From NCBI RefSeq assembly GCF_027451485.1, contig NZ_DAIDJE010000139.1, positions 39,004 to 103,003 on the forward strand: a stretch of 64,000 nt of DNA. The letters run 5' to 3'. The position numbers and the translations under genes were made by a program. Shown here piece after piece: positions 41,003-63,354 of the stretch. Below the pieces are notes generated by a model. That model was not told the origin of the DNA. It ran no database searches and was given only the letters and a program-made list of their open reading frames with translations. The DNA is from Bradyrhizobium sp. (GTDB lineage Bacteria; Pseudomonadota; Alphaproteobacteria; Rhizobiales; Xanthobacteraceae). Each line of letters opens with the position of its first letter. The first letter of the stretch is position 1.

Positions 41003-42784
41003 TTGCGCGCTTCGAGGCTTAAGTTAAAGATCCGATCAGACCGATTTGACCTCGCCTTTGGCAGGTTGACGGCGGGTTGCCTGCTGCTGACGTGCCTTTG
41101 GCTGATGGCGCTGGTTCCCGCCATCAATGCCGCCTCGATGCGCCCGGTGGCGGCCGAAAGGGGCATGGTGGTCACGGCGCAGCACCTTGCAACCGAGGTC
41201 GGGGTCAACGTTCTCAAGCGCGGCGGCAACGCGGTCGATGCTGCGGTCGCGGTCGGATATGCGCTCGCGGTCGTCTATCCCGCCGCCGGAAATCTGGGCG
41301 GCGGCGGCTTCATGACCCTCCGCTTTGCCGACGGACGAAAGACGTTCCTCGATTTTCGCGAAAAGGCGCCGCGCGCCGCGACGCGCGACATGTATCTCGA
41401 CAGCGACGGAAAGACAGTCAAAGGCCTGAGCACGACCGGCTGGCTCGCCGTCGGCATTCCCGGCACCGTGTCGGGCCTGGAATTCGCGCGCAGGAAATAC
41501 GGAACGATGTCGCGGGCGGCGTTGATCGGACCTGCGATCGAACTGGCCGACGACGGCTTCACGCTCGACCAGGGTGACGTCGACATGCTGGCGACGGCGA
41601 CTGACGATTTCAGGAAATTTCCGTCGACTGCCAGGATCTTCCTCAGCAAGGATCGGCCTTTTGTGGCCGGCCAAAGACTGGTGCAGCCCGAACTCGCCAA
41701 CACGCTTCGCCTGATCAGAGCGCACGGCCCTGACGGCTTTTATCGCGGCAAGACTGCTGCGGCCATCGTGAGGGCGAGCCGCGCGGGCGGCGGGATCATC
41801 AGCGAAGAGGATCTCGCAACCTACCGGACGCGCGAGCTTGCTCCGATCGAGTGCGACTATCGCGGCTATCATGTGATCTCGGCGCCGCCGCCGAGCTCCG
41901 GCGGCACGGCACTATGCGAGATGCTGAACATCCTGGAGGGATACCCGCTGCGCCAGCTCGGCTGGGGTTCGGCGCAGGCGATCCATGACGAGATCGAGGC
42001 GATGCGTCACGCCTACGCCGACCGCAACACGCTGCTCGGCGACCCCGCCTTTGTCAAGAATCCGGTCGGGCGGCTGATCGACAAGAACTATGCGGCGAAG
42101 ATCCGCGATTCCATTGCGGCCGACAAGGCCGGGATCTCCAGCGAACTGGGCAAGGACCTCGGCTCTCACGAAGGCTCCAACACCACGCACTTCTCGATCA
42201 TCGATCGAGCCGGAAATGCTGTCTCGCTGACCTACACGCTGAACGACTGGTTTGGCGCAAAGGTGGTCGCCGCCGGCACCGGCGTGCTGATGAACGACGA
42301 AATGGACGATTTCACGCCGGATCCCGGCCGCCTCAACGCATACGGGGTCGTGCCGGGCGAGGCGAATGCCATCGCGCCGGGCAAGATTCCCTTGAGTTCG
42401 ATGAGCCCGACGATCATCACCAAAGATGGCAAGCCCGTGCTCGTTCTCGGCACACCTGGCGGAAGGCGCATCATCACGGCGGTGCTGCAAACCATCCTCA
42501 ATGTCGTCGATTTCGGCATGAACATTCAGGAAGCCGTCGACGCGCCCCGCATCCATCACCAATGGCTGCCCGACGTGACCAGCGTCGAACCCTACGCGCT
42601 GTCGCCCGACACCCGCCACATCCTGGAGGACATGGGATATCGCTTCAGCGACTCGCTGCCGGCCAATCACCTCGCCGCCATCATCATCGGCGCGCCAAGC
42701 CTTGAAGGAAAGCCGGTCGCACGAAACAGGTATTATGGCGCAAACGATCCGCGGCGCGGCACCGGGCTGGCGTCAGGCTATTAG
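41003..42784 (+). CDS. ggt: gamma-glutamyltransferase
   Basis: Periplasmic glutathione/gamma-glutamyl hydrolase-transpeptidase of 593 residues. The signal sequence includes LTAGCLLLTCLWLMALVPAINA. The large subunit has KRGGNAVDAAVAVGYALAVV, and the autoprocessing Thr opens the small subunit at NTTHFSIIDRAGNAVSLTYTLN. TTG start with AGGA upstream. Promoter and leader overlap the composite repeat. Confidence 0.94.
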   Translation: MRASRLKLKIRSDRFDLAFGRLTAGCLLLTCLWLMALVPAINAASMRPVAAERGMVVTAQHLATEVGVNVLKRGGNAVDAAVAVGYALAVVYPAAGNLGGGGFMTLRFADGRKTFLDFREKAPRAATRDMYLDSDGKTVKGLSTTGWLAVGIPGTVSGLEFARRKYGTMSRAALIGPAIELADDGFTLDQGDVDMLATATDDFRKFPSTARIFLSKDRPFVAGQRLVQPELANTLRLIRAHGPDGFYRGKTAAAIVRASRAGGGIISEEDLATYRTRELAPIECDYRGYHVISAPPPSSGGTALCEMLNILEGYPLRQLGWGSAQAIHDEIEAMRHAYADRNTLLGDPAFVKNPVGRLIDKNYAAKIRDSIAADKAGISSELGKDLGSHEGSNTTHFSIIDRAGNAVSLTYTLNDWFGAKVVAAGTGVLMNDEMDDFTPDPGRLNAYGVVPGEANAIAPGKIPLSSMSPTIITKDGKPVLVLGTPGGRRIITAVLQTILNVVDFGMNIQEAVDAPRIHHQWLPDVTSVEPYALSPDTRHILEDMGYRFSDSLPANHLAAIIIGAPSLEGKPVARNRYYGANDPRRGTGLASGY

Positions 42785-43673: not shown

Positions 43674-46600
43674 ATGCGGATTGGACGCAAACCTTCCGAT
43701 GAAGCGGACGCAGTCGGCGCCGGCGCTTTTGCCGACGGCGAGTCGTCCGGCCGCCGCGATCCAATCCTGTGGCTCGTCGCCTGCGGGATCCTGCTGATTG
43801 CAGCCATTGCCGTCGGGACCGCGATGACGGTCTTCAATTTTCGCGATCATGCGCTTGAGAGCAGCAAACGCGAACTGGAAAACACCGTCATTCTGCTCGC
43901 CCGTCATTTCGACCAGCAGTTGAGCGACGCCGAGATTCCCCTCGTCGACCTCATTGAACAGATTCATCAGGCCGGCATCAATTCCCCGGACGATTTCAGG
44001 CGCCGGATGTCCACGCCGGAAATGCAGCGGGAGCTGGCGGAAAAGGTCAGCCGCGTCTCCAAGGTCGCGGGCCTCAATATCTATGATGCGGACGGCCTGC
44101 TGATCAATTCGTCGGAAACCACGACTGTTCCGGGCGTCAGGATCGACGATCGCGACTATTTCAAGGCCCTCAAGTCCAGCGCGGACGCCGAGCATCCGCA
44201 GATCGAACTTGTGCTCAGCCGCTTTACGGGCGTGTGGAAGATTCTCGTTACCCGCAAGGTGGCTGCGCCAGACGGCACCTTCCTGGGTGTGGTTTCACGG
44301 GCCATTGCGCCCGCAAAATTCGAGGATTTCTTTTCAACCGTCGCGCTCGGAAAGCAAGCCACGATATCGATGCATCATCATGACGGGACCTTGCTGGCGC
44401 GCTACCCGCACGTCGACGCCATTATGGGCAAGGATTTCAAGGCTGGTTCGACGCCGCAGGCAGCCGCCCTGCTCGGCCTGAATCACGGGGCGACGCGGTT
44501 ATTCAGCCCGGTTGATGGCGCCGAGCGGCTGGTCGCCATTCAGAGCCTGTCGCGATTTCCGCTTTCGATCGTGGCTACAACCACAGTTGCATCATCTCTT
44601 GCCGACTGGCGGGCACAGACCAGGTTCCTCGTGGTCGCGGCGATGCTCTCGGCGATCATTGTTGCGATCACGATCATGCTGATCGTGCGCCGACTGACAT
44701 GGCAGCATCAATCCGCACAGCGGCTGGTGAGACTAGAGAAGCAGCGCCTCGACACTGCGGTCGAGAACATGTCGCAGGGCTTGACATTGTTCGATCAGGA
44801 CAAGCGGCTCGTCGTCTGCAACCGGCGATATATCGAGATGTACGGGCTGTCGGCCGACGTTGTGAAACCGGGCTGCGAGCTTCGGGACCTGATTACCCAT
44901 CGCAACGACATCGGATCGATACAGGTCGAGGTCGATGACTACTGCGCCCGAATCATCGAACACGTCGCGCGCGGAGAGCAGGTCACGCTGCAATCCGTCG
45001 AAGGACGTTCAATTCAGATCACCCACCGCCCGTTGCCCGACGGCGGCTGGGTCGCCACCCACGAAGACATCACCGAACGCATGCGCCAGGAGAGGGCAAT
45101 TCTGGAGCAGTCGAGCGAACTGTCGCGGATCAACAAGCAGTTCGATGCGGCGTTGAGCAACATGGCGCACGGGCTCTGCATGTTCGACGGCGAGAAGCGC
45201 CTCGTGGTCTGGAACGAACGCTATGCGAAGCTCTATCAGCTGCCGCCGGAGCTCCTGAAGGTCGGAACGCACCATGACGCGATCATTGCCGATCGAATCT
45301 CTCGCGGGGTTCTCAAGGCAGGGATGAGCGCCAGGCAGAAGATCGCCTCGCTCGATCAGTTGCCGAAGGATGCAGTATCGAGCCGCGTCGATGAACTTTC
45401 CGATGGACGCTTCATCCTTATCAGCCGGCAGCCGATGGATGACGGCGGGTGGCTGGCGACGCACGAAGACATTACCGAGCGGCGGCGTGCCGAGGCCGAG
45501 ATCGTCCACCTGGCTCGCCACGACGTGCTGACCGGGCTCGCGAACCGCGCTGAGTTCAATGCGAGGCTCGAACACGCGTGCAAGCGGCTGAAGCGCAGCG
45601 GAAGCACCGTCACGGTGATGATGGTCGATCTCGACAGGTTCAAGGTCGTCAACGACACGTTCGGGCATCCGGCCGGCGACCAGCTGCTGATCGAGGTGGG
45701 AAGACGGCTGAAATCCACCGTCCGCGAAACCGACGTGGTGGCGCGATTGGGCGGCGACGAATTTGCCGTAATCCAGGAAGGCGGCTCCGACCAGCATGAG
45801 GGCGCGATTGCGCTTGCGCTTCGAATCATCAGCGCCATTTCCAGACCGTTCGATCTGAACGGCAACCGGACGAGCCTCGGCACCAGCATCGGCATCGTGC
45901 TGGCTCCGGAACACGAGAGCGATCCAGAAGAGCTCCTCAAGCGTGCCGATCTTGCGCTGTACGACGCCAAATCCAACGGCCGGAACGACTACCGGTTCTT
46001 CCGCAGCGAGCTTCTCGAGGTCGCCCGCACACAGCGCAGCGCCGAGAGCGAACTGCGAGAGGCGATCGAGCGGCAGGATTTCCAACTGTTCTATCAGCCG
46101 GTGGTGGATGCGAAGACGCGCGCGTTGTGCGGCGTCGAGGCGCTGGTGCGGTGGCGGCATCCGACGAAGGGTCTGATTTCACCCGACAAGTTCGTTCCGC
46201 TCGCGGAAGCGACCGGTCTCATCGGCCCTCTCGGCGAATGGATCCTGCAGCGCGCCTGCGCGGATGCCGCGTCATGGCCGGCGCATGTCAGGCTCGCCGT
46301 GAATATCTCCGCCATTCAGTTCAAGAAGGGCAATCTCTTCGAGGTCATCCTGCGGACGCTGATGGAGACCGGCCTTCCGCCCGAGCGGCTGGAGCTTGAG
46401 ATCACCGAGACGTCGCTTCTCGAGAACCAGGAAGCCCATCTGACCACTATCCGTCAGGTCAAGAATCTCGGAATCTCGATGGCACTCGACGACTTCGGTA
46501 CCGGATATTCTTCGGTGAACTATCTGGCAAATTTTCCGTTCGACAAGATCAAGATCGACAAGTCTTTCACGCAAGGCGTGCTCAATCGCCGTGACTGCAA

Positions 46601-46802
46601 GGCGGTCGTCGCCTCGACGCTCGCGCTCGCGCAAGGCCTTGGAACGGTGACGACCGCCGAGGGGGTCGAGACCGAGGAACAGCTGGAGTACCTGCGCGTA
46701 GCCGGCGTTGACCTGGTGCAAGGCTATCTGTTCGGCCGGCCGGTGCCGCTTTCGCAGCTCGACCTGACCGCAGCCCCGTCCCCCGCGGACATGGTGGCGT
46801 AA
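43674..46802 (+). CDS. membrane-bound diguanylate cyclase/phosphodiesterase (dCache-PAS-PAS-GGDEF-EAL)
   Basis: Cyclic-di-GMP signalling protein of 1042 residues. Order: TM helix (~25-50), periplasmic dCache-like sensor (~50-300), second TM (~320-340, FLVVAAMLSAIIVAITIMLIV), two tandem PAS-like modules each starting ENMSQGLTLFD or SNMAHGLCMFDGEKR, then GGDEF (RLGGDEFAVI, with intact I-site RETD five residues before) and EAL (GVEALVRW, with DDFGTGYSS). Both catalytic motifs look intact, so the protein may be bifunctional. Confidence 0.93.
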   Translation: MRIGRKPSDEADAVGAGAFADGESSGRRDPILWLVACGILLIAAIAVGTAMTVFNFRDHALESSKRELENTVILLARHFDQQLSDAEIPLVDLIEQIHQAGINSPDDFRRRMSTPEMQRELAEKVSRVSKVAGLNIYDADGLLINSSETTTVPGVRIDDRDYFKALKSSADAEHPQIELVLSRFTGVWKILVTRKVAAPDGTFLGVVSRAIAPAKFEDFFSTVALGKQATISMHHHDGTLLARYPHVDAIMGKDFKAGSTPQAAALLGLNHGATRLFSPVDGAERLVAIQSLSRFPLSIVATTTVASSLADWRAQTRFLVVAAMLSAIIVAITIMLIVRRLTWQHQSAQRLVRLEKQRLDTAVENMSQGLTLFDQDKRLVVCNRRYIEMYGLSADVVKPGCELRDLITHRNDIGSIQVEVDDYCARIIEHVARGEQVTLQSVEGRSIQITHRPLPDGGWVATHEDITERMRQERAILEQSSELSRINKQFDAALSNMAHGLCMFDGEKRLVVWNERYAKLYQLPPELLKVGTHHDAIIADRISRGVLKAGMSARQKIASLDQLPKDAVSSRVDELSDGRFILISRQPMDDGGWLATHEDITERRRAEAEIVHLARHDVLTGLANRAEFNARLEHACKRLKRSGSTVTVMMVDLDRFKVVNDTFGHPAGDQLLIEVGRRLKSTVRETDVVARLGGDEFAVIQEGGSDQHEGAIALALRIISAISRPFDLNGNRTSLGTSIGIVLAPEHESDPEELLKRADLALYDAKSNGRNDYRFFRSELLEVARTQRSAESELREAIERQDFQLFYQPVVDAKTRALCGVEALVRWRHPTKGLISPDKFVPLAEATGLIGPLGEWILQRACADAASWPAHVRLAVNISAIQFKKGNLFEVILRTLMETGLPPERLELEITETSLLENQEAHLTTIRQVKNLGISMALDDFGTGYSSVNYLANFPFDKIKIDKSFTQGVLNRRDCKAVVASTLALAQGLGTVTTAEGVETEEQLEYLRVAGVDLVQGYLFGRPVPLSQLDLTAAPSPADMVA

Positions 46803-46865
46803 CCCGCTTGGCCTTTCGGGACGCGGTCGCCCACCATCCTTGAAAGTCATGTGCCCTGGCAAACT

Positions 46866-46914
46866 TGGGACCGCTTATCGATCTGAACCCTGAACGATTT
46901 CAGATCGGAAATAC
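46866..46914. repeat. short relative of palindromic repeat family 2
   Basis: GGGACCGCTTATCGATCTGAACCC, then ATTTCAGATCGG: the ACCGCTTtATCGATCTGAA block and the inverted TTCAGATC arm match the copies at 29207 and 40911, with a shortened centre. It fills part of the 240-base gap between the GGDEF/EAL and TRAP binding-protein genes. Confidence 0.6.
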
Positions 46915-47042
46915 CCGCCCTCGCCTTGCCCGGCCTCGCTTCCTGTTCTGTTGCCTCGCGTTTTTGGCGCGTTATCGGTTTATTTACCCTAACGCCGTCT
47001 ATTGCGCTGGGCGGCAATTTTCATTGCCCGCGGGGCAAAGAC

Positions 47043-48050
47043 ATGCGTGACAAGATCGGAAGACGGCGCTTCCTTGCGGGCGCTGCCGCGGCCGCCATCA
47101 CCTCGAGCCTTTCGAGCCGGCGCGCCTATTCGGCGATCCAGCCGCAGGTATTGCGGATGGGTTTCATCAATCCGAGGGACTCTCAATTCGGCGCCGGTGC
47201 GCTGGAGTTCGCCACTTACGTTGAGCACAATTGCGGCGGCCGGCTGAGGGTCGAACTCTATCCTGCCGGCGAAACCGGCGGTGAGCTGGAGATGTGCCAG
47301 GACGTCGCTGCCGGCACGCTCGACATGACCTTTACTTCCTCTGCAGTCTTTACGGCGATCGCGCCCGAACTCAGCATCTTCGATATCCCGTTCCTGTTTC
47401 GCGACCTCGGTCACGCCCGCGCCGTGATGGACGGCGAGATCGGCAAGGCGGCCCTGGCGCGTCTGGAACCGAAGGGCATCGTCGGCCTCGCCTGGGGCGA
47501 AAACGGCCTGCGCCATCTCACCACCTTTGACCGCGCCGTTCGCCGGCCGGAAGACCTCAAAAATCTCAAGCTGCGCGTACCGCAATCCGAGGTGATGGTG
47601 GCGAGCTTCAAGGCGATCGGCGCCGACGTACACTCCCTGCCATTCCCCGACCTTTACGCGGCGCTGTCTTCGGGATCATTCCAGGCGGAGGAAAACCCGA
47701 TCGCGACCATCGTAGCGACGAACTTCGACCGCGTTCAGCACTATCTGTGTCTGACCGGGCATGTCTACTCGCCGGCAGCTTTCCTGATCTCCAAGCAGGT
47801 TTTCGAACGCATTTCGCCTGAGGATCGATCAGCGCTGCGTGCCGCCGGTGTCGCCGGAAGCAAGGCCAGTCGTGCCTATCTCGACCGGGCCGAAAAAAGC
47901 GGCCTCGAGGAGCTGCGCCGCCGCGGCATGAAAGTGGTCGAAGATATCGACCGCCCGGCTTTCGTGGCCTCACTCGCCGGCCTTGAAAGCCAATTCCAGA
48001 AGCAGTTTGGCAAAGACAAGATCGACGCCATCCGTGCTTACGGCAAATGA
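47043..48050 (+). CDS. TRAP transporter substrate-binding protein (DctP family), orphan
   Basis: Periplasmic binding protein of 335 residues. The Tat signal [16 protein letters not shown] is followed by [31 protein letters not shown], with the conserved ligand Arg region in [20 protein letters not shown]. The track start adds 39 unlikely residues; ATG 47043 is used. No DctQ/DctM membrane subunits are nearby, while a chemoreceptor begins only 10 bases after the stop. Confidence 0.88.
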
Positions 48051-48060
48051 GGCAACATCG

Positions 48061-50064
48061 ATGTCATTGCTGTCTGTCGCCAACCGGATCAGTCTCAACG
48101 GTCGCCTGATCGGCGGTTTCGGGCTCCTGATGGTGTTGAGTGCCGGCACCTCGATCTTCTACAACGCTCGGATCCGCGATGTGCGGGACAATGTTGCTCA
48201 CATCGAGCAAGCATCGGTGGCGACCGACACGGTCAGCAACTTTGCCCGTCAGCTTCTGCTGCTGCGGCGCGTCAGCGTCGACTATTTCCGGTCCGGCTCG
48301 GCCACGGACCGCAGCAAAACGCTCGCCGCCTTCGAGCCGCTCGACAAATCGATTGATGCCCTGCGCGAAGCCGTCGGTCCGCGCGGCGATGGGCTGCGCA
48401 GCGGCCTTTCCGAATACCATGCCGTATTCAACAAGCTGGACGAGGAAATCAGGAAACGTCAGGCTGCGCTGCAGGCCATGAACGCCAGCAGCATACGGCT
48501 GACGAATACGTTGACGACCGTGACGCTCGAACTCGGGGCGGCGGGCGAAGCGGCGCTTCCAGCAGCCCAGCGACTCGAGCAGGCGGTCCAGGCGCTTCGC
48601 GCCATCGCCTACCGTTATGTCGGCACCTCGTCTGCCGGCGATCTGGACATCATGACCGCCGAACGGGAACGGGTCGGCAGGGAGCTGGCTCCGGTAAAGG
48701 CTTTGCCGCCGGCCGATCCCGCCTTGGCCAAGGTCGTCGCTCTATTGCCGGCGCAGGTCGAGAAGATGCTGACCTCCTCCGCTCAGCTGGTCGCCTCGGT
48801 GGCGTCGACCGAGCAGACCCATGCGGCACAGGTCAAGACCGGCATCAAACTCGGCCAGGACGCCGAAGCGCTCCGCAACGAATATCAAACCAATCGCAGC
48901 GAGGCCGTTTCGACCGCCGCCAGAATCGCCGAGGATGCCTCGACCGCCGGCTCAATTGCCGCGATAACCGGCGGCATGCTTGCCATTATCCTGGCCGGCC
49001 TCATTACGATCTCGATCTCGACGCTGATCAAGCGGATGACGCGGACGATGTCGCAGCTCGCCGGCGGCGATCTGACGGTCGAAATCGAGGGCGCCGGGCG
49101 AGGTGACCAGATCGGCAACATGGCGCGCGCCGTCAGCATCTTCAAAGACAACGCCGTTCGAATTGCCGAGGTCGAGTCGGAGAAGAGCCGCCTCGCGGCG
49201 CAGACCGAGCAGGACCGCAAAGCGGGCTTGAGAGAACTTGCCGCGCGGCTCGAGCATGCCGTCAAGGACATTGCCGACGCGGTGAAGGAATCGGCGCAGC
49301 GGATGCACGATGGCGCCATGACCATGAGCGGAGCTGCCGAACGCACCAAATCCCAGTCGGGCGCCGTCGCCACTGCGTCCGGGCAGGCCTCGGCCAATGT
49401 TCAGACGGTTGCCTCTGCGGCCGAGGAGCTGTCGGCCTCGATCCGCGAGATCGGCCAGCAGGCGCAAAGCTCGGCCAACGTCGCGCGCCGCGCCGCCGAG
49501 CAGGCGAGCCGGACCATGGTGACGATGGAGGGGTTGTCCCAGGCTGCCGACCGGATCGGCGAGGTGATCAACCTGATCAACAGCATCGCCTCGCAAACCA
49601 ATCTGCTGGCGCTCAACGCCACGATCGAGGCGGCACGCGCGGGCGAGGCCGGCAGAGGCTTTGCCGTCGTCGCCTCCGAGGTCAAAAACCTCGCAGCCCA
49701 GACCGCGCGGGCGACGGAAGACATCGCGGCGCAGATTTCGTCCATCCAGGGCGAGACCAAGGAAGCCGCGAGCGCCATCAAGGGCATCGAAACCGTCATC
49801 ATGGAGATCAACCAGATCGCGACGACGACGGCAAGCGCGGTCGAAGAACAGGGTGCAGCGACCGCCGAGATCGCCCGCAACGTCCAGCAGGCAGCGGCGG
49901 GTACCGATGAGGTTTCCAGCAATATCGCCGGCGTGCTCGAGGCCGCGGCGGAAACCGATCAGCATGCCCGCATTGCGCTGGACAACTCCAACGAATTGAC
50001 CGGCCAGGCCGACCGGCTCTGGCAGGCGGTCATCGGCTTCGTCGAAGACGTGAAGGCTGCCTGA
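48061..50064 (+). CDS. methyl-accepting chemotaxis protein
   Basis: Chemoreceptor of 667 residues. N-terminal TM ([18 protein letters not shown]), periplasmic helical sensor (~35-305), second TM ([18 protein letters not shown]), HAMP, and the cytoplasmic signalling tip [22 protein letters not shown] with long methylation helices. No C-terminal CheR-docking pentapeptide. ATG 48061 replaces the track's early start. Only 10 bases follow the TRAP binding-protein gene, indicating an operon. Confidence 0.93.
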
Positions 50065-56360: not shown

Positions 56361-57026
56361 TTAGGCCGCGCCAAGATTAAACCCCAGCGCGATCGTACCG
56401 ACCAGGATGAGGCTGATCGCCCAGACCGCATCCAGATTGAACCAGCCCCGCGAGACGAATCTCAGGCCCAAGTAGCGGTAGACGAGCCAGGCCAGGCATC
56501 CGCCGGCGCCGATCATTGCGATGACATGGACAATGGCGACGAGAACCGCGACGGCGAGATTGCCTTCGACAAGCGGGGCGGCGGCGGCGTGGCCGGACGC
56601 ATCGGAGCGGCAAAGTCCGAGATAGATCGGCACGAGCATGAGTCCCGCTCCGTGCGCGATCGCGATCGCAAATGACCAGAGTCCGAGTTGCGTTGGCGGT
56701 ATCCTTGCCAGCGACCTCGGATGGCGGCGATCAAGCAGGCGGAAGATGCCAAACCCGATAACGACAAGGGCCGCAGCAATCTGGATGTCGTGCCGCCATT
56801 CGGCAAGCGCGAGCAGCAGCCCGAACGGCAACAGTATCACGAGGACTGCCAGCAAATGCCCGACTGACAAAGGCAAAAGCGTCAGAAACAGCGCGCGCGG
56901 ACTTTTTTCCATCAGTCCCGCAGAGACTGCGAGCGGCCACCCCATTCCCGGGTTGGCGCCGTGAAAGAGGCCGCTCGCAATGACGGCCAGCCAAAGCCAG
57001 GCGCCTGTCCAATCGCCTTGGCTCAA
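56361..57026 (-). CDS. polytopic membrane protein, possibly metal-transporter-like
   Basis: 221 residues with about six TM helices. His-containing helix starts SGLFHGANPGMGW, LSVGHLLAVLVILLPFG and IAIAHGAGLMLVPIYLG vaguely resemble NicO/RcnA-like transporters, but I cannot assign a family. TTG start one base after the stop of the SBP56-like gene (TAA-A-TTG), so translation is probably coupled. It may help supply metal to that enzyme; this is inference. Confidence 0.72.
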   Translation of the reverse strand: MSQGDWTGAWLWLAVIASGLFHGANPGMGWPLAVSAGLMEKSPRALFLTLLPLSVGHLLAVLVILLPFGLLLALAEWRHDIQIAAALVVIGFGIFRLLDRRHPRSLARIPPTQLGLWSFAIAIAHGAGLMLVPIYLGLCRSDASGHAAAAPLVEGNLAVAVLVAIVHVIAMIGAGGCLAWLVYRYLGLRFVSRGWFNLDAVWAISLILVGTIALGFNLGAA

Positions 57027-57027
57027 T

Positions 57028-58428
57028 TTAAGCCGACGGATAACAGAAAGAGTCGGTCGAGCAGTCCCCGCCCTCGAGCCGGATCTGATGAGGCCGATAT
57101 CCGTCGGGACAATTCACCCAATAGTCGCTGGCGAGTTCGAGCCCACCGCTGGGGCCCGCGTTGGCCATCACGGCCGCCCCAGGCATTCCGTCGGGATAGA
57201 ACTGCTTGTCCCATGTCGAGTAGAGCGAGTTCGTCCAGTAGACGCGTTTGCCGTCACGGCTGATTTCGACCATTTGCGGACCGCCCGCGTAAGCCTTGCC
57301 GCTCGGGTGCGGCGTGCGGCGTGCGATGCCGCCGATGTGCACGGAGCCAGCAAGCTTCGGCTTTCTGGGATCGCGGACGTCGTATTGCCGCATCTCGCCG
57401 GTGCCCCAGCAGGAAACGTACAGAAAGCGGTCGTCCATCGACAGGTCGATGTCGGTCACGAGCGGAGGCACCGCGCCAAAACCCTGCAGCAGCGGCGGCA
57501 GCTTCTCCTTCGCGGCCGGCTCGGGCGGGATGGTCGCGGTCTTTTCTGCGTGGAATTTTCCGTCCTCGCGCCACCAGGTGAAGATCGAGGCCTCGAGGTT
57601 CGTGGTGTCGACGACGACGCCGACAAAGCCGTATTCACGAACCGGATCGTGGGCGGGCCGCACCTCCAGCGCCATCTGATGGTTGGCGCCGAGATCGATG
57701 GTTTGCGTGTGACGCCGCTCCCGCAAGTCCCAGAAGTGGAGCCGGTGACCATATTTGTTGGCAAGCAGATCTTCGGCAACGATGCCGTTCTCGAACTGCG
57801 GCGGCAGCGCCCATTCGCTTGTCACCATGTAGTCGCGTGGCAGGTTCCACCAGAAGTCATAATGCAGCTTTTGCGGGCCTCGATCGATCTCCCAACGCCC
57901 GAGCACCTCGAATGTCTCGCAATCCATGATGAACACACCGGGAGGTCCCTCGGTGCCATCCTTTCCGCCGCCGCCGAGCGTGCTGACATAGATGCCTTCA
58001 GGCCCGCAATGGATCGTATGCGGCCGCGAGTAGCCGGTCTTCTTGAACACCTCTTCGGGCTCGATGATCTTGTGAATCCGTGCCTTGGTGGGATCGGGCT
58101 TGGTGTCCACGATATAGATCCGCGAGGAGCGGATTCCGGGAATGACGAGATAGCGTCGCTCGACGAAGGCGTGGCCTGCGAGCGGCGACAGCGCCGACGA
58201 GCAGGCGTTCCAGCCGAAGTGATGAAACTCGTCGCCCTTGTTCGGCATCACGACCGTGTGGACGATCTGACTATAGGTCTGCGACGACGGGTTGACGTCA
58301 ACGACCGCGAGCGCGTCCGGCTTCGAAAAATCCGGACAGAGCAGCAGCATATAGGCGAAGTTTTCCGCGGGAGCTTCCATCGCCAGCCTCGGCGATGCAT
58401 GAAACGTGGGATCCGGCCTCATTGTCAT
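57028..58428 (-). CDS. selenium-binding protein 56 / methanethiol oxidase family
   Basis: Beta-propeller protein of 466 residues. Family blocks are DEFHHFGWNACSSALSPLAGH, SRPHTIHCGPEGIYVSTLGG, SEWALPPQFENG and LYVSCWGTGEMRQYDV. Homologues oxidise methanethiol to formaldehyde, H2S and H2O2 using copper. The Cys motif reads CSSA where animal proteins have CSSC. The track start at 58707 is too early; ATG 58428 has GGGAGG upstream. Couples to the membrane-protein gene. Confidence 0.9.
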   Translation of the reverse strand: MTMRPDPTFHASPRLAMEAPAENFAYMLLLCPDFSKPDALAVVDVNPSSQTYSQIVHTVVMPNKGDEFHHFGWNACSSALSPLAGHAFVERRYLVIPGIRSSRIYIVDTKPDPTKARIHKIIEPEEVFKKTGYSRPHTIHCGPEGIYVSTLGGGGKDGTEGPPGVFIMDCETFEVLGRWEIDRGPQKLHYDFWWNLPRDYMVTSEWALPPQFENGIVAEDLLANKYGHRLHFWDLRERRHTQTIDLGANHQMALEVRPAHDPVREYGFVGVVVDTTNLEASIFTWWREDGKFHAEKTATIPPEPAAKEKLPPLLQGFGAVPPLVTDIDLSMDDRFLYVSCWGTGEMRQYDVRDPRKPKLAGSVHIGGIARRTPHPSGKAYAGGPQMVEISRDGKRVYWTNSLYSTWDKQFYPDGMPGAAVMANAGPSGGLELASDYWVNCPDGYRPHQIRLEGGDCSTDSFCYPSA

Positions 58429-58825
58429 CAGATGCCTCCCTGTTTGCGCCGTGATGCCCTGTGAGGAAAACACCGGTTTGCGGCTGTTGGGTGGCAATAT
58501 GCGCGATTCTGGTGGGCTGGCGCGCTGGATCGGCGCCCGATCCCGTCGGCGCCGGTTGTCGGGGTCGGGTGCCATCACCTTCGCAGATAAGTTCGCCAGC
58601 GAAAGCTGCGGGCGGCAGAACTTCCTTCCGATGGCCCGCAATGAACCCGAACCTATTGCACCGCACCGGACTGCGTTTCTGCGCTTTCGGGGTCGAGCAG
58701 AGATCAATCGGCTGCCAGCTTCGGCCGGACCGGTTGAAGATGACCCTTCTGAGACATGCTCTTCCGACGGCGTTTCCGCTTTGCGTCCAAGAGACGAGCA
58801 GAGAAACCCGCAACAGGAAGACTAT
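58429..58825. other. gap between dioxygenase beta-subunit gene and SBP56-like gene
   Basis: About 400 bases on the minus-strand side of the operon. ORFs here (for example 58298..58813 minus and 58461..58859 plus) look like shadows. No ferredoxin or reductase is seen. The SBP56-like gene probably has its own promoter here. Confidence 0.5.
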
Positions 58826-59422
58826 TCACAAGATGATGCTGGGATTGCGGATACATTGATCACACTGAAGCAGATTCACCTGCTTGGCAGAAATCTTCCA
58901 TTTCCCGTCGTACCTTCGGAAGCGGTGCCCGGCCCAACCGGCGAGTACCCGGGTTTCGTCGTCCCAGAACTCATTGATCATGAAGTTCGATCGCACGAGC
59001 TTCTGGTCCGCATTCAAGCAATCGAATACCTCGACATTCGACACCACCCGAACAGTCCTCGATGAGGGTGCCTGCGACCAGGCAAAGCCCGTCGACAGGC
59101 GATAGACGCGGTCTCCAAGCCTGCGGCGGTCATCGAACATCACGGCGATTTCGCTGCGCGGATCGCCTCCATTTGGAGTGCTCGGCACCCAATAGAAGCA
59201 TTCATCCGCATAGCTCGCCATCCAGCCGGTGAAATCAAGCCTGTCGAGAAGGCGTGCCTCGCGTTCAACCAGTCGCCGGAAAAAATCACGCTCGGCAGGA
59301 TCCTCGACCGTAGGCTCTTCGGTTCTGATGCGGTGAAAGTCCGCAATCAATTCCCGATAGGCCGCATCATCGACATAGTAGGAATAGCGTGCCGGATCAC
59401 GGCTGAGGGAAGTCGTGCTCAT
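58826..59422 (-). CDS. aromatic ring-hydroxylating dioxygenase, small (beta) subunit
   Basis: Non-catalytic cystatin-like beta subunit of a Rieske dioxygenase, 198 residues. Typical features are REARLLDRLDFTGWMASYADECFYWVP, EIAVMFDDRRRLGDRVYRL and the ending HRFRRYDGKWKISAKQVNLLQCDQ (quoted in part). Its ATG directly follows the TAG of the alpha subunit gene with no spacer, so it is co-translated in an alpha-beta unit. Confidence 0.92.
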   Translation of the reverse strand: MSTTSLSRDPARYSYYVDDAAYRELIADFHRIRTEEPTVEDPAERDFFRRLVEREARLLDRLDFTGWMASYADECFYWVPSTPNGGDPRSEIAVMFDDRRRLGDRVYRLSTGFAWSQAPSSRTVRVVSNVEVFDCLNADQKLVRSNFMINEFWDDETRVLAGWAGHRFRRYDGKWKISAKQVNLLQCDQCIRNPSIIL

Positions 59423-60784
59423 CTAGGGCTCCCGACGAATGGTCAGCTTCGGCTGCGTTTTCATTAGACGTTTCCATTCTTTGATGTATTCGCGCATGAA
59501 GACTTCGTCCGTCGCCGGCCCCTTCAGCGTGCCATCTTCGAGCGTCTTGATGCGGCCGGGGATGTCGAGGCCCCGGTTCATGTAGATCCATTCGTCTTCC
59601 CGGCAGCGCAGACCACGCTGAATCTGTTCGAAGTTGGTGACGTCGTCGACTTCGCCGAAGTTCGGAAAACCTTCCTGCGTCCGCATCCGAAGGGTGTTGA
59701 TATCGTTCAGCACGTCAGGGCCCATCGTGCCGTCAACATCCTCGATCTTGGTGCCGTACCAGATGGTGTCGGTCTCGTCGTACGAGATCGGCTGAAACAC
59801 CTGGATGTGGTTGCCGAGCAGCGACAGGTTGGGAAAGATGTTTATGTTGACCGGCTCCGATCCCGCCAAGTCCAGAAACGACTCGGCCTTTGCGCCAAAC
59901 CGGCTTCGCAGCTTCTCGGCGACGTGCTCCATGCCGGGGTGCAGCGATTCGATCGCCCAAAGGCCGCCCGTCCGCGGCTGCAAGTTCGGCCGCTTGTCCT
60001 TGAAGTGATGTCCGTTGCCCATGTACTGGATATACATCGGCTGCTCGTCGGGCGAGTTCTTGTAGTAGGACATGCCCTTCTCGGTCGCCTCGTCCTGAAA
60101 GCGGTTTTCCGTTTCGAGCAGCGAGCGGTGCGAATACAGCACATGGTAACCGTCGCCGGAATTGTCGTAGGCGAGCTTCCAATTCCCCTTGTACTTGATG
60201 CGATTGGCTTCGCAGACGATGATCTTTCCACCCGGGTTGCGATCGATCCACTCGTCCAGCGGACGCTTGATTGGCCCGAGATGGTCGCTCAGCGACGGCA
60301 TCGCTTCGTTTAGCGTGGCGAAGATGAACCCGCGATAAGATTCCACCCGCGGCACCTGCGCCAGGTTGAATTTGGCATCATGTGCAGGATTTTCCGCGTA
60401 ACCGTCGGGCCACGGCACGCCGCGCAGCTTGCCGTCGTTCTGGAAATTCCAGCCGTGATAGGGACACTGGAACGCGCGCTTGTTGCCTTTCTCGAAACGG
60501 CAGAGCGTCGTCCCCCGGTGGGTGCATCGATTGAACAGGGCGCGGATCACGCCCTCGTTGTCACGCGTGACGATGAGCGGACGCAGACCGAGCCTCGCCG
60601 TGATGTAATCATTGCGTTCCGGAATCTGGCTCTCGTGAGCGAGATAGACCCAGGTGCCGCCGAACACGGACCGCATCTCGGCTTCGAAGATGGCGGGATC
60701 CGTATAAAGCGACTCATGGACGCGGTCCTCCTGGACCAGGTCATCCCAATCATAGGCTTGCGTGCGGCGTTCGATGTGGGTCAT
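59423..60784 (-). CDS. aromatic ring-hydroxylating dioxygenase, large (alpha) Rieske subunit
   Basis: 453-residue catalytic subunit. The Rieske cluster ligands are CTHRGTTLC and CPYHGWNF (C-x-H ... C-x2-H). The mononuclear iron site follows in NSGDGYHVLYSHRSLL (Asp bridging residue and two His), with the late carboxylate expected near NLSLLGNHIQVFQPISYDE. Overall shape fits the benzoate/anthranilate/aniline-type oxygenases. It lies 24 bases after the GS-like gene. No reductase or ferredoxin gene is present in the operon. Confidence 0.93.
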   Translation of the reverse strand: MTHIERRTQAYDWDDLVQEDRVHESLYTDPAIFEAEMRSVFGGTWVYLAHESQIPERNDYITARLGLRPLIVTRDNEGVIRALFNRCTHRGTTLCRFEKGNKRAFQCPYHGWNFQNDGKLRGVPWPDGYAENPAHDAKFNLAQVPRVESYRGFIFATLNEAMPSLSDHLGPIKRPLDEWIDRNPGGKIIVCEANRIKYKGNWKLAYDNSGDGYHVLYSHRSLLETENRFQDEATEKGMSYYKNSPDEQPMYIQYMGNGHHFKDKRPNLQPRTGGLWAIESLHPGMEHVAEKLRSRFGAKAESFLDLAGSEPVNINIFPNLSLLGNHIQVFQPISYDETDTIWYGTKIEDVDGTMGPDVLNDINTLRMRTQEGFPNFGEVDDVTNFEQIQRGLRCREDEWIYMNRGLDIPGRIKTLEDGTLKGPATDEVFMREYIKEWKRLMKTQPKLTIRREP

Positions 60785-60808
60785 GGGTCAGCACCCCGCA
60801 GAAGTGGG

Positions 60809-62299
60809 CTAGAAAAAATCAAAATACTCGTTCTGCTCCCAGTCCGTGATCTCATCGCTCGACGGATCCAGGCTGTTGGCGGCGACGAACTCAGCGAAGC
60901 GGTCCGCCTCCTTGCGCTTCAGCGCGAGATAGTAGTTTACGAACAGGTCGCCCATCTCCCGGCGAAACAGCGCAGATTGCGAGAGGCTGTCGAGCGCCAA
61001 TGGCAAACTCTTCGGCAACCTGGTGCGATCCGTGCTGTAGGGATCGGTGTCCGGCGCACCCGGATCAAGTGAGTTGTCGATACCATCGAGGCCAGTGATG
61101 ATCTGCGAGGCAACGTAGAGATAAGGATTGGCCGATGGCTCTCCCAAACGGTTCTCGATCCGGGAGGCAGGATCGCCAGGCTCTCCCAATATCCTCAGCA
61201 TCACGCCGCGATGGTCATTGCCCCAGGCCAGCCGGTCCGGCGCGAGCGAATTGGCGCGGAAACGACGGTAGGCATTGACGGTGGGATTGGCGAATACCGT
61301 GGCGGGAATGCCGTGAGCTAGCAAGCCGCCTAAATAAGACATGCCCAGGCTGGAAAGCGGAATGCCGCTTTCGCTCGGCGTGAACGCGTTGGCCCCGGCC
61401 GAATCGACGAGAGATTGGTGCAGGTGCCATCCGCTCGAATAGAGGCCCTTCACTTTCGGGCGGCACATGAAGCTTGCGAGATAGCCCATCCGTCGCATGA
61501 TCTGCCGCGTGGCGGTACGGAAGAGCAGCAAGTTGTCGGCTGCGCGGAGGGCATCTGCCGGCCCGAAGGTGCACTCCACCTGGCCGGGTCCCCATTCGTT
61601 CTCGAAGGATCGGACAGGTAGATCCAGAGCTTCGTAAGCGCTTGCCAATCTCGCGATCGGCTCGTGCATGAGATCGAAGCTGGTTTCCGAATGGAACGAG
61701 TAGCCGGGCTCGACAGGATAGGCGCGTAACGCACGCCCCTTGATTCCCGGTGCGCCGAGATTTTGCTCGGTCAGTCGATCGTCGGCAAGGCGAAGCAAGT
61801 ACCACTCCACCTCCAGACCGACGACGCTGCGAAGACCACGGCCGTTGAGACGCTCGACCTGCTTCCTCAACACGTGTCGCGGTGAGAAATGGAATGGCCG
61901 TCCCGATGTGAAGTAATCGTCGCACAGCACCCAGCCGACGGTCGGTTCCCACGGCAATACCCGAAAGGTGAAGGGGTCCGGGACGATGATCAGGTTGGGC
62001 GACCCGGTCATCTCCTCTAGTCCCAGGCCGCCGCCGCGGGTGAATGATGAGAAGACCCGGGCCCCGGACGCGTCGAGCGTCGCCGTCGCAACATTGATGT
62101 TGTAGCCGTTCGTCATGGCGCCGCGAAAGACCTCGGAGGTAACGGTTTTCGCGCGCGAGACCCCGTGCGGATCGCTCCAGGCCACGCGCACCAGCTTGAC
62201 GCCGTCCTTGGCGATCCGGTCGGTCACCTCCTTCGATCGTGCGCGCTGGTCCTCGGTCCAAAGGCCGTGCTTGTCGATGAAACCGGAACTGCTGGACAT
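60809..62299 (-). CDS. glutamine synthetase-family ligase (gamma-glutamyl-amide synthetase-like)
   Basis: 496-residue GS-fold enzyme. ATP/metal-site motifs are VVGLEVEWYLL, FENEWGPGQVECTFGP, SSGWHLHQSL, NPTVNAYRRFRANSLAPDRLAW (in parts) and the Arg/Glu RIENRLGEPSANPY; the C-terminus WEQNEYFDFF fits GS-like ligases. ATG 62299 (MSSSSGFID) follows AGAGG; the track start would overlap the promoter region. Position ahead of a Rieske dioxygenase suggests gamma-glutamylation of an amine before oxygenation, as with TdnQ/AtdA1 of aniline degradation; gamma-glutamylpolyamine synthetase is the main alternative. Confidence 0.88.
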   Translation of the reverse strand: MSSSSGFIDKHGLWTEDQRARSKEVTDRIAKDGVKLVRVAWSDPHGVSRAKTVTSEVFRGAMTNGYNINVATATLDASGARVFSSFTRGGGLGLEEMTGSPNLIIVPDPFTFRVLPWEPTVGWVLCDDYFTSGRPFHFSPRHVLRKQVERLNGRGLRSVVGLEVEWYLLRLADDRLTEQNLGAPGIKGRALRAYPVEPGYSFHSETSFDLMHEPIARLASAYEALDLPVRSFENEWGPGQVECTFGPADALRAADNLLLFRTATRQIMRRMGYLASFMCRPKVKGLYSSGWHLHQSLVDSAGANAFTPSESGIPLSSLGMSYLGGLLAHGIPATVFANPTVNAYRRFRANSLAPDRLAWGNDHRGVMLRILGEPGDPASRIENRLGEPSANPYLYVASQIITGLDGIDNSLDPGAPDTDPYSTDRTRLPKSLPLALDSLSQSALFRREMGDLFVNYYLALKRKEADRFAEFVAANSLDPSSDEITDWEQNEYFDFF

Positions 62300-62415
62300 G
62301 AGACCTCTGATCGATCGGGTGGGCAGCCTCGGACTCGCTGGCATGATCACCAGGATGGTATATTAAACAAATGCCGTGTTCGTCACATCTTATGATTTAA
62401 CTGGTATGTTTTGAG
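62300..62415. promoter_or_regulatory. divergent promoter region between GS-like gene and LysR gene
   Basis: 116 bases, distinctly AT-rich compared with its surroundings (ATGGTATATTAAAC and TCTTATGATTTAACTGGTAT). Such spacing is typical for a LysR regulator controlling the divergent operon. A T-N11-A site cannot be assigned with certainty. Confidence 0.5.
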
Positions 62416-63354
62416 ATGCCGTTCTCGACGGTGCAGCGGGAGCCGCTGATCAACCGCCTCCGCCTATCGCAGCTAGCGTTGCTGGCGGCAATGGATCGAA
62501 CCGGCACGCTCAGCGCGGCCGCTCGCGAGGTCAATCTGACCCAGCCCGCCGCGTCGCGCTTGCTGCGGGAGCTCGCATCCGATCTCCGCGTCGTGCTCTT
62601 CGAACGCGTCGGACGCACCTTGCGGCCGACCGCGGCGGGACGCGCCCTGATCCGCCGGGCGGTCGGCTTCCTGGCGGAGCTCGACCGTACGCAGGATGAA
62701 ATCGAGGCGATTCATGACGGCCTGGTCGGAACGGTTCGCCTCGGGGCCGGCGTCAGCTCCTGCTATGTCGTCGTCCCGACCGCGCTCAAGCTTCTGATGG
62801 AGCAGTCTTCGGAAATCGCTGTCAACATCCGGGAAGGCGCCATGGACGAGTTGCTGGGGCGCTTACGCACTGGTCAGATCGATCTTCTGGTCGGCCGGTT
62901 TGGCCACGAGCAGGACTTATCCGACGTCAAGACCGAGGATCTCTATCGGCCGAGTGTCGTGGCCGTTTGCGGGGTCAAACATCCTTTGGCCTCGCGTCGA
63001 TCGCTCGATTGGGATCAGCTCTACGAGCAGCCATGGATTTTTCCCGAGGCCGGCACCGCGATGCGCTCGGCCATCGAGTCTCACTTTCGTAAGACCAAGC
63101 GGCGTCCGGCCAAGGCGTCGGTTGAATCATCCTCGATCCAGGCCAATGTCGCGCTTCTCAATTCGTCGCGCTTGATATGGGTCCTGTCGTCCGACGTGGC
63201 GGCGTATTTCGCTAAGCTGGGGGCGCTGCACGTCCTGATGGTGGAGCAGTTGCCCGCGCCTGGAGCTTTCGTGCTGGCTTGGCTCGTCGGTCGCCGATTG
63301 TCCCCTGCGGCCGAGAAGCTTGCCGACTGTCTACGGGCAGTAGGAACGCTCTAG
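62416..63354 (+). CDS. LysR-family transcriptional regulator
   Basis: 312 residues. HTH at ~15-60: RTGTLSAAAREVNLTQPAASRLLRELA. The effector domain (~95-300) includes VRLGAGVSSCYVVVPTALKLLMEQ and LRTGQIDLLVGRFGH, similar to the GbpR/PcaQ subgroup. Divergent from the GS-like/dioxygenase operon, which it probably activates in response to the pathway substrate or product. Confidence 0.92.
   Translation: MPFSTVQREPLINRLRLSQLALLAAMDRTGTLSAAAREVNLTQPAASRLLRELASDLRVVLFERVGRTLRPTAAGRALIRRAVGFLAELDRTQDEIEAIHDGLVGTVRLGAGVSSCYVVVPTALKLLMEQSSEIAVNIREGAMDELLGRLRTGQIDLLVGRFGHEQDLSDVKTEDLYRPSVVAVCGVKHPLASRRSLDWDQLYEQPWIFPEAGTAMRSAIESHFRKTKRRPAKASVESSSIQANVALLNSSRLIWVLSSDVAAYFAKLGALHVLMVEQLPAPGAFVLAWLVGRRLSPAAEKLADCLRAVGTL

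Follow-up and report, generated by a model that had tools for sequence, protein, structure and literature searches.

A predicted operon for glutamylation and dioxygenation of an aromatic amine in Bradyrhizobium

We analyzed a stretch of 64,000 nucleotides (the window; contig NZ_DAIDJE010000139.1 of assembly GCF_027451485.1, positions 39,004 to 103,003) from the 5.3 Mb genome of a Bradyrhizobium sp., in which genes for a glutamine synthetase (GS)-like protein and for the alpha and beta subunits of a Rieske dioxygenase stand in a row, opposite to a divergent gene for a LysR-type regulator. With a probability of roughly 0.55, this cluster comprises an operon under LysR control whose products catalyse the initial two reactions of aromatic amine breakdown. 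In the first step, as the family and residues of the protein indicate, the GS-like enzyme would use ATP to join the gamma-carboxyl group of glutamate to the amine. In the second, the two-subunit oxygenase, together with an unlinked reductase, would introduce two hydroxyl groups into the glutamylated ring, at the carbon that bears the nitrogen and at the adjacent one; by analogy with the aniline and 1-naphthylamine systems, the amide nitrogen would then leave and a catechol-type diol would form. Taken as a class, this pair of steps is very probably what the cluster performs. An initial annotation of the window had proposed that the cluster glutamylates an amine and then oxygenates it, which proved right in kind, as the amine-ligase loop is present and the ammonia-site residues are lost.

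Organization, conservation and descent of the cluster

The gene for the GS-like gamma-glutamyl-(aromatic) amine ligase (60809..62299, minus strand; PF00120 Gln-synt_C, E=7e-74) encodes 496 residues when read from its ATG, and an alternative in-frame GTG start lies at 62350. It is followed after 24 bases by the gene for the Rieske ring-hydroxylating dioxygenase alpha subunit (59423..60784, minus strand; 453 residues; PF00355 Rieske, E=4e-20, and PF00848 Ring_hydroxyl_A, E=1e-13), which adjoins, with 0 bases between, that for the beta subunit (58826..59422, minus strand; 198 residues; PF00866 Ring_hydroxyl_B, E=3e-32). The LysR-type gene (62416..63354, plus strand; LysR_substrate, E=8e-36) encodes a protein whose best NCBIfam match is PcaQ, at 149 bits and thus below the cut-off of 304. 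All four genes therefore have a clear Pfam family match, and lie with the orientation and spacing that had been annotated. The divergent intergenic region between them (62300..62415), presumed to hold the regulator-binding site and promoter, contained no sigma-70 consensus, and promoter and terminator scans scored at or below chance. LysR control of the operon is predicted. Only 646 bases separate the LysR gene from the end of the contig, which is also the end of the window, and genes beyond that point are not visible.

The same four-gene block, in the same orientation but with different neighbours, was found in two other Bradyrhizobium-type genomes, namely Bradyrhizobium sp. JYMT SZCCT0180 (locus L016) and a Hyphomicrobiales metagenome-assembled genome (L017), with identities to the window proteins of 65% for LysR, 74% for GS, 83% for alpha and 78% for beta. 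This recurrence shows that the four-gene arrangement is not a product of chance. No convincing shared operator emerged when the intergenic region was aligned with those of the two loci. Within the genus, clusters of this type occurred in 3 of 272 genomes, and one more genome (G081) carried a Shinella-type relative; the cluster is thus an accessory trait in the genus. In a sample of 385 genomes of the class, alpha subunits with 59–64% identity were encoded by eight, which belong to three other families, and a further genome at the level of the order encoded one that was 70% identical.

Trees were built from 46 GS-like and 37 alpha sequences. In each of them, the same 12 loci formed one clade with a support of 100/100, near but outside the branch of the GATase-bearing (glutamine amidotransferase-like) aniline, 1-naphthylamine and dichloroaniline systems, and in the GS tree far from GlnA and PuuA, even though some deeper forks of both trees were poorly resolved. 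Pairwise distances of GS and alpha correlated strongly over 26 loci (r=0.90; 0 of 5000 permutations gave a value as high), as expected if the two genes travel and work together. The order and orientation of the GS, alpha and beta genes were kept in all 12 clade loci, which are alphaproteobacterial, come from at least five families and differ in their outer neighbours. Regulators vary: the three Bradyrhizobium-type loci have LysR, L097 has an AraC-like protein, as read from its sequence, and L131 has a PcaR-type IclR protein; hence the conserved core is formed by GS, alpha and beta.

With regard to the ligase, the GS-like protein scored 226 bits against the PuuA model NF045547 (cut-off 650) and 197 bits against the GlnA model TIGR00653 (cut-off 429), and nested with neither family, while its best PDB match was the 1-naphthylamine ligase NpaA1 (8wwu, E=3e-138). 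The metal, ATP and glutamate residues are kept, whereas the ammonia-site residues Asp50 and Glu327 are replaced by Ser and Leu. Moreover, the protein has the 14-residue amine loop (motif-15) and the equivalents of E232 and E234 of NpaA1, in which the loop and the paired glutamates bind the amine (PMC11335346). These residues support its assignment to the organic-amine (GoaS) ligase type rather than to the ammonia-using enzymes, with a predicted glutamylation activity. The phylogeny that the initial annotation had called for as a check accordingly places the protein outside the PuuA and GlnA clades, among ligases of the organic-amine type.

In the alpha subunit, the Rieske ligands C87-H89-C107-H110, the bridging D211 and the facial triad H214, H219 and D381 are invariant across the 37 aligned sequences. 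Its own phylogeny groups it with GS-linked, aniline-type oxygenases, and the linkage to GS is kept in the 12 loci. Together these data make it very improbable that the GS-like protein is a nitrogen-assimilation or polyamine enzyme standing beside an unrelated oxygenase; GS-like genes are indeed common, with three other GS-family genes in the same genome, but the adjacency of GS, alpha and beta persists across families amid changing outer neighbours, the two proteins co-diverge, and the GS-like protein has lost its ammonia-site residues and sits apart from PuuA and GlnA.

Absence of the GATase and the reductase

We then considered the two partners that accompany the ligase and oxygenase in aniline degradation and that had been reported as absent from the window. 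A hidden Markov model (HMM) of the AtdA2-type GATase, built from the eight aniline-type control loci on which it was also run, matched in 8/8 of these loci, which are its own training set, and in 0/12 clade loci. A whole-genome search of 11 clade genomes for a close AtdA2 relative returned partial matches of 28–35% identity or none, the best in the window's own genome reaching 31% over approximately 170 residues. The GATase is therefore absent both nearby and, as a close relative, genome-wide. In the 1-naphthylamine system, ligase, oxygenase and reductase suffice for diol formation, and the GATase seems to undo the ligation (PMC11335346). As this relative can form the diol without it, the absence of the GATase does not amount to a missing step: the clade genuinely lacks the enzyme, yet its pathway is not left incomplete by this. 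A GATase-like hydrolase would thus not be needed in this clade.

The same published result speaks against the proposal that a missing GATase leaves a gamma-glutamyl product to another enzyme, for instance the gamma-glutamyltransferase at 41 kb. That gene (window 41003-42784, plus strand; PF01019, E=1e-169) is separated from the cluster by approximately 16 kb of DNA carrying unrelated genes, and was ruled out as a required partner, as the diol forms in the relative without GATase and the gene is unlinked.

A reductase of the AtdA5 type adjacent to the cluster was detected by HMM in 0/12 clade loci, the region of the window beyond LysR not being visible. The reductase HMMs gave one distant FNR-type match in L097, approximately 6 kb away and beside a siderophore-type receptor gene; elsewhere in the clade loci they returned general flavoprotein matches only, as well as, in L016, a ferredoxin beside a P450 gene. 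The window's own genome encodes several reductases of the right fold, the nearest of which are components of other systems, for instance the paa operon.

The probable amine

The amine is likely to be aromatic rather than aliphatic, and we consider it somewhat more probable than the alternatives that it is anionic, of the aminobenzoate or aminophthalate type, as judged from the residues of both enzymes and from neighbouring genes in other genomes. At position 81 of the GS-like protein (codon 62057..62059, minus strand), which corresponds to the M81 that controls substrate choice in NpaA1 (PMC11335346) and lies in its amine tunnel, Arg is present in 12/12 clade members and in 0/34 others. At position 262 of alpha (codon 59999..60001, minus strand), Lys is present in 12/12 clade members and in 0/25 others. 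In alignments by two MAFFT modes, this position corresponds to Leu253 of naphthalene dioxygenase (NdoB), a pocket residue. A small set of clade-invariant diagnostic positions (Arg81, Lys262, and Asn233 in place of Asp) separates the clade from the aniline branch. From this pattern, an anionic substrate had been predicted before the sequences of L131 were compared; all of the diagnostic residues checked are present in L131, which is not the case in the aniline-type locus L133, found in the same round. The two enzymes thus differ from the aniline enzymes at substrate positions, and the annotated option of a different amine is a likely one.

Genes neighbouring the cluster in other genomes were also considered. 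Near L131, these include UbiD, a PcaR/PcaU/PobR regulator above cut-off, a class II aldolase with a best, sub-threshold match to 3,4-dihydroxyphthalate decarboxylase, and a protein related to ones annotated either as 4,5-dihydroxyphthalate decarboxylase or as ABC (ATP-binding cassette) substrate-binding protein. In L093, UbiD is accompanied by a PcaD-like hydrolase and by another protein of the decarboxylase-like family of L131 (37% identical), and in L017 a gentisate/5-aminosalicylate dioxygenase-like cupin lies near the cluster. Altogether, the residue pattern, the neighbours and the PcaQ match, the latter well below cut-off, suggest an aromatic amine with an acid group, without naming it. 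If the amine carries such a group, the diol would be a dihydroxybenzoate-type acid, which genes elsewhere in the genome would decarboxylate or ring-cleave. More tentatively, the clade may have a glutamylation-dioxygenation route that works without a GATase and is reserved for acidic aromatic amines. Selection of the acid group would then fall to ligase Arg81 and oxygenase Lys262, and decarboxylases or beta-ketoadipate-type pathways would receive the resulting diol acid.

Several points weigh against this interpretation. The Arg81/Lys262 signature comes from one clade, and each of the two positions reflects one ancestral change, so that they do not count as 12 independent observations. For Lys262, the pocket location derives only from aligning the sequence with NdoB; an AlphaFold prediction of alpha from three sequences had a pLDDT (predicted local distance difference test score) of 32, and no structural claim is drawn from it. 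Neighbours vary between clade members, the window copy is without decarboxylase genes, and several of the neighbour matches are sub-threshold. In addition, the three intradiol dioxygenases encoded in the window's own genome all have catechol-type enzymes as their best matches, and that genome shows no PcaGH pair side by side. The oxygenase would also depend on a reductase supplied from outside the cluster. Finally, a spermidine/putrescine-type transporter in the vicinity of L097 would be compatible with an aliphatic amine as well.

Some of these observations bear on an ordinary aniline-type cluster, which would glutamylate neutral anilines on the way to catechol, with GATase and reductase encoded elsewhere. 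The catechol-type dioxygenases and the reductases of suitable fold would agree with it, and the closest characterised relatives are the aniline, 1-naphthylamine and dichloroaniline enzymes. It is unlikely, however, given that both genes fall in a separate, fully supported clade, that no close AtdA2 relative was found in the 11 genomes, that the nearest reductases sit in other systems, and that an invariant Arg occupies the amine-tunnel position, which is hydrophobic in the aniline-type ligases, and an invariant Lys the pocket position of alpha. An aliphatic or arylalkyl amine, such as a polyamine or an arylethylamine, glutamylated and then oxidized on ring or side chain, is less likely still. 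GS-like relatives such as PuuA and GlnA4 act on aliphatic amines (PMC11335346; PMC6529630), and both L097 and the more distant L102 adjoin polyamine-type ABC transporter genes; yet alpha and beta belong to the ring-hydroxylating oxygenases and are most similar to those of the aniline type, and most neighbours of recognisable function are aromatic-acid genes.

Other candidates did not enter the favoured reading of an acidic aromatic amine. Beside the cluster, L016 (13657-17143) and L017 (13630-17194) carry a GntR-controlled operon for a gentisate/5-aminosalicylate dioxygenase-like cupin, an FAH hydrolase and a flavin-reductase-type protein. As the lower half of the pathway it is only suggestive, because it has its own divergent GntR gene and a close orthologue is absent from the window genome, where the best match (37%) lies in a separate gentisate cluster. 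Riboflavin/lumichrome catabolism as a source of acidic arylamines was set aside, as PMC12746152 does not mention glutamine synthetase, and a literature search of incomplete coverage found no GS-like enzyme in aminobenzoate breakdown. The genes downstream of beta, for an SBP56/methanethiol-oxidase-like protein (window 57028-58707, minus strand) and for a membrane protein with no Pfam match (window 56361-57026, minus strand), were rejected as operon members, since neither is conserved with the cluster.

Related systems and significance

The closest described systems, NpaA1-A5 of Pseudomonas sp. JS3066 and AtdA1-A5/TdnQTA1A2B, likewise encode a GS-like ligase together with a two-subunit Rieske oxygenase, with the same ligase fold and loop and with a homologous oxygenase (approximately 42–47% identity). 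They differ in carrying a GATase-like gene and a linked reductase, in having hydrophobic residues at ligase position 81 and at the position of oxygenase Lys262, and in forming a separate branch. The Shinella, Rhizobium and Bradyrhizobium G081 clusters (L053, L060 and L102) share the GS-alpha-beta order in Rhizobiales, and L102 is without linked GATase or reductase; in contrast to the window clade, they group with the aniline side in both trees, are accompanied by an RpiR-type regulator and are without Arg81 and Lys262. On plasmid pn1 of Nostoc sp. UHCC 0926 (L048:11131-14811), beta, alpha (52% identical) and GS also occur together without GATase or reductase, but in the order beta-alpha-GS, with Met at 81 and Ile at 262, and outside the clade. 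Nostoc sp. HK-01 has a close GS gene with no annotated oxygenase beside it. E. coli PuuA and GlnA share the catalytic core and the metal, ATP and glutamate residues, but they have different substrates, are far apart in the tree and have no oxygenase partner.

A further pair in the same genome (G000:C40:42368-45322; L061:7368-10323) joins a GS-like amine ligase, 45% identical to that of the window, to an adjoining Rieske oxygenase gene; unlike in the cluster, the oxygenase is of the alpha-only LigXa type, without beta, the ligase is from a different GS clade, and a branched-chain-type ABC transporter is linked. This pair was present in 14/14 other Bradyrhizobium loci checked, as well as in other Proteobacteria, in Actinomycetota and on more than 10 plasmids (further loci L002-L015, L019, L020, L027, L032 and L033). 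It looks like an independent GS-Rieske partnership, matched to no described pathway. Together with named relatives, the genus-wide occurrence of this GS paralogue supports assigning the host to Bradyrhizobium.

Three side observations concern other genes. L093 (15698-17525), L095 and L096 each have an additional, distantly related pair of Rieske alpha and beta genes approximately 5 kb from GS-alpha-beta, beside a 4,5-dihydroxyphthalate-decarboxylase-like gene. L097 (6735-7550) encodes a HalD/WelO5-type (halogenase-like) 2-oxoglutarate enzyme beside its polyamine-type ABC transporter, near GS-alpha-beta. Within the window, genes for a Cache-PAS-GGDEF-EAL protein, a TRAP-type DctP binding protein and a methyl-accepting chemotaxis protein follow in a row (43674-50064, plus strand) and perhaps form a sensory group.

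Rieske oxygenation of a previously glutamylated amine has been described from a small number of pollutant degraders, where it is mostly plasmid-encoded. The initial annotation had raised the possibility of an undescribed amine-oxygenation route; the cluster is indeed a new variant, but the chemistry itself has already been described. The presence of this branch in several alphaproteobacterial families, without GATase and with a consistent pocket change in both enzymes, suggests an older chemistry serving natural substrates, and Arg81 and Lys262 provide a two-residue handle on how such enzymes choose their amine.

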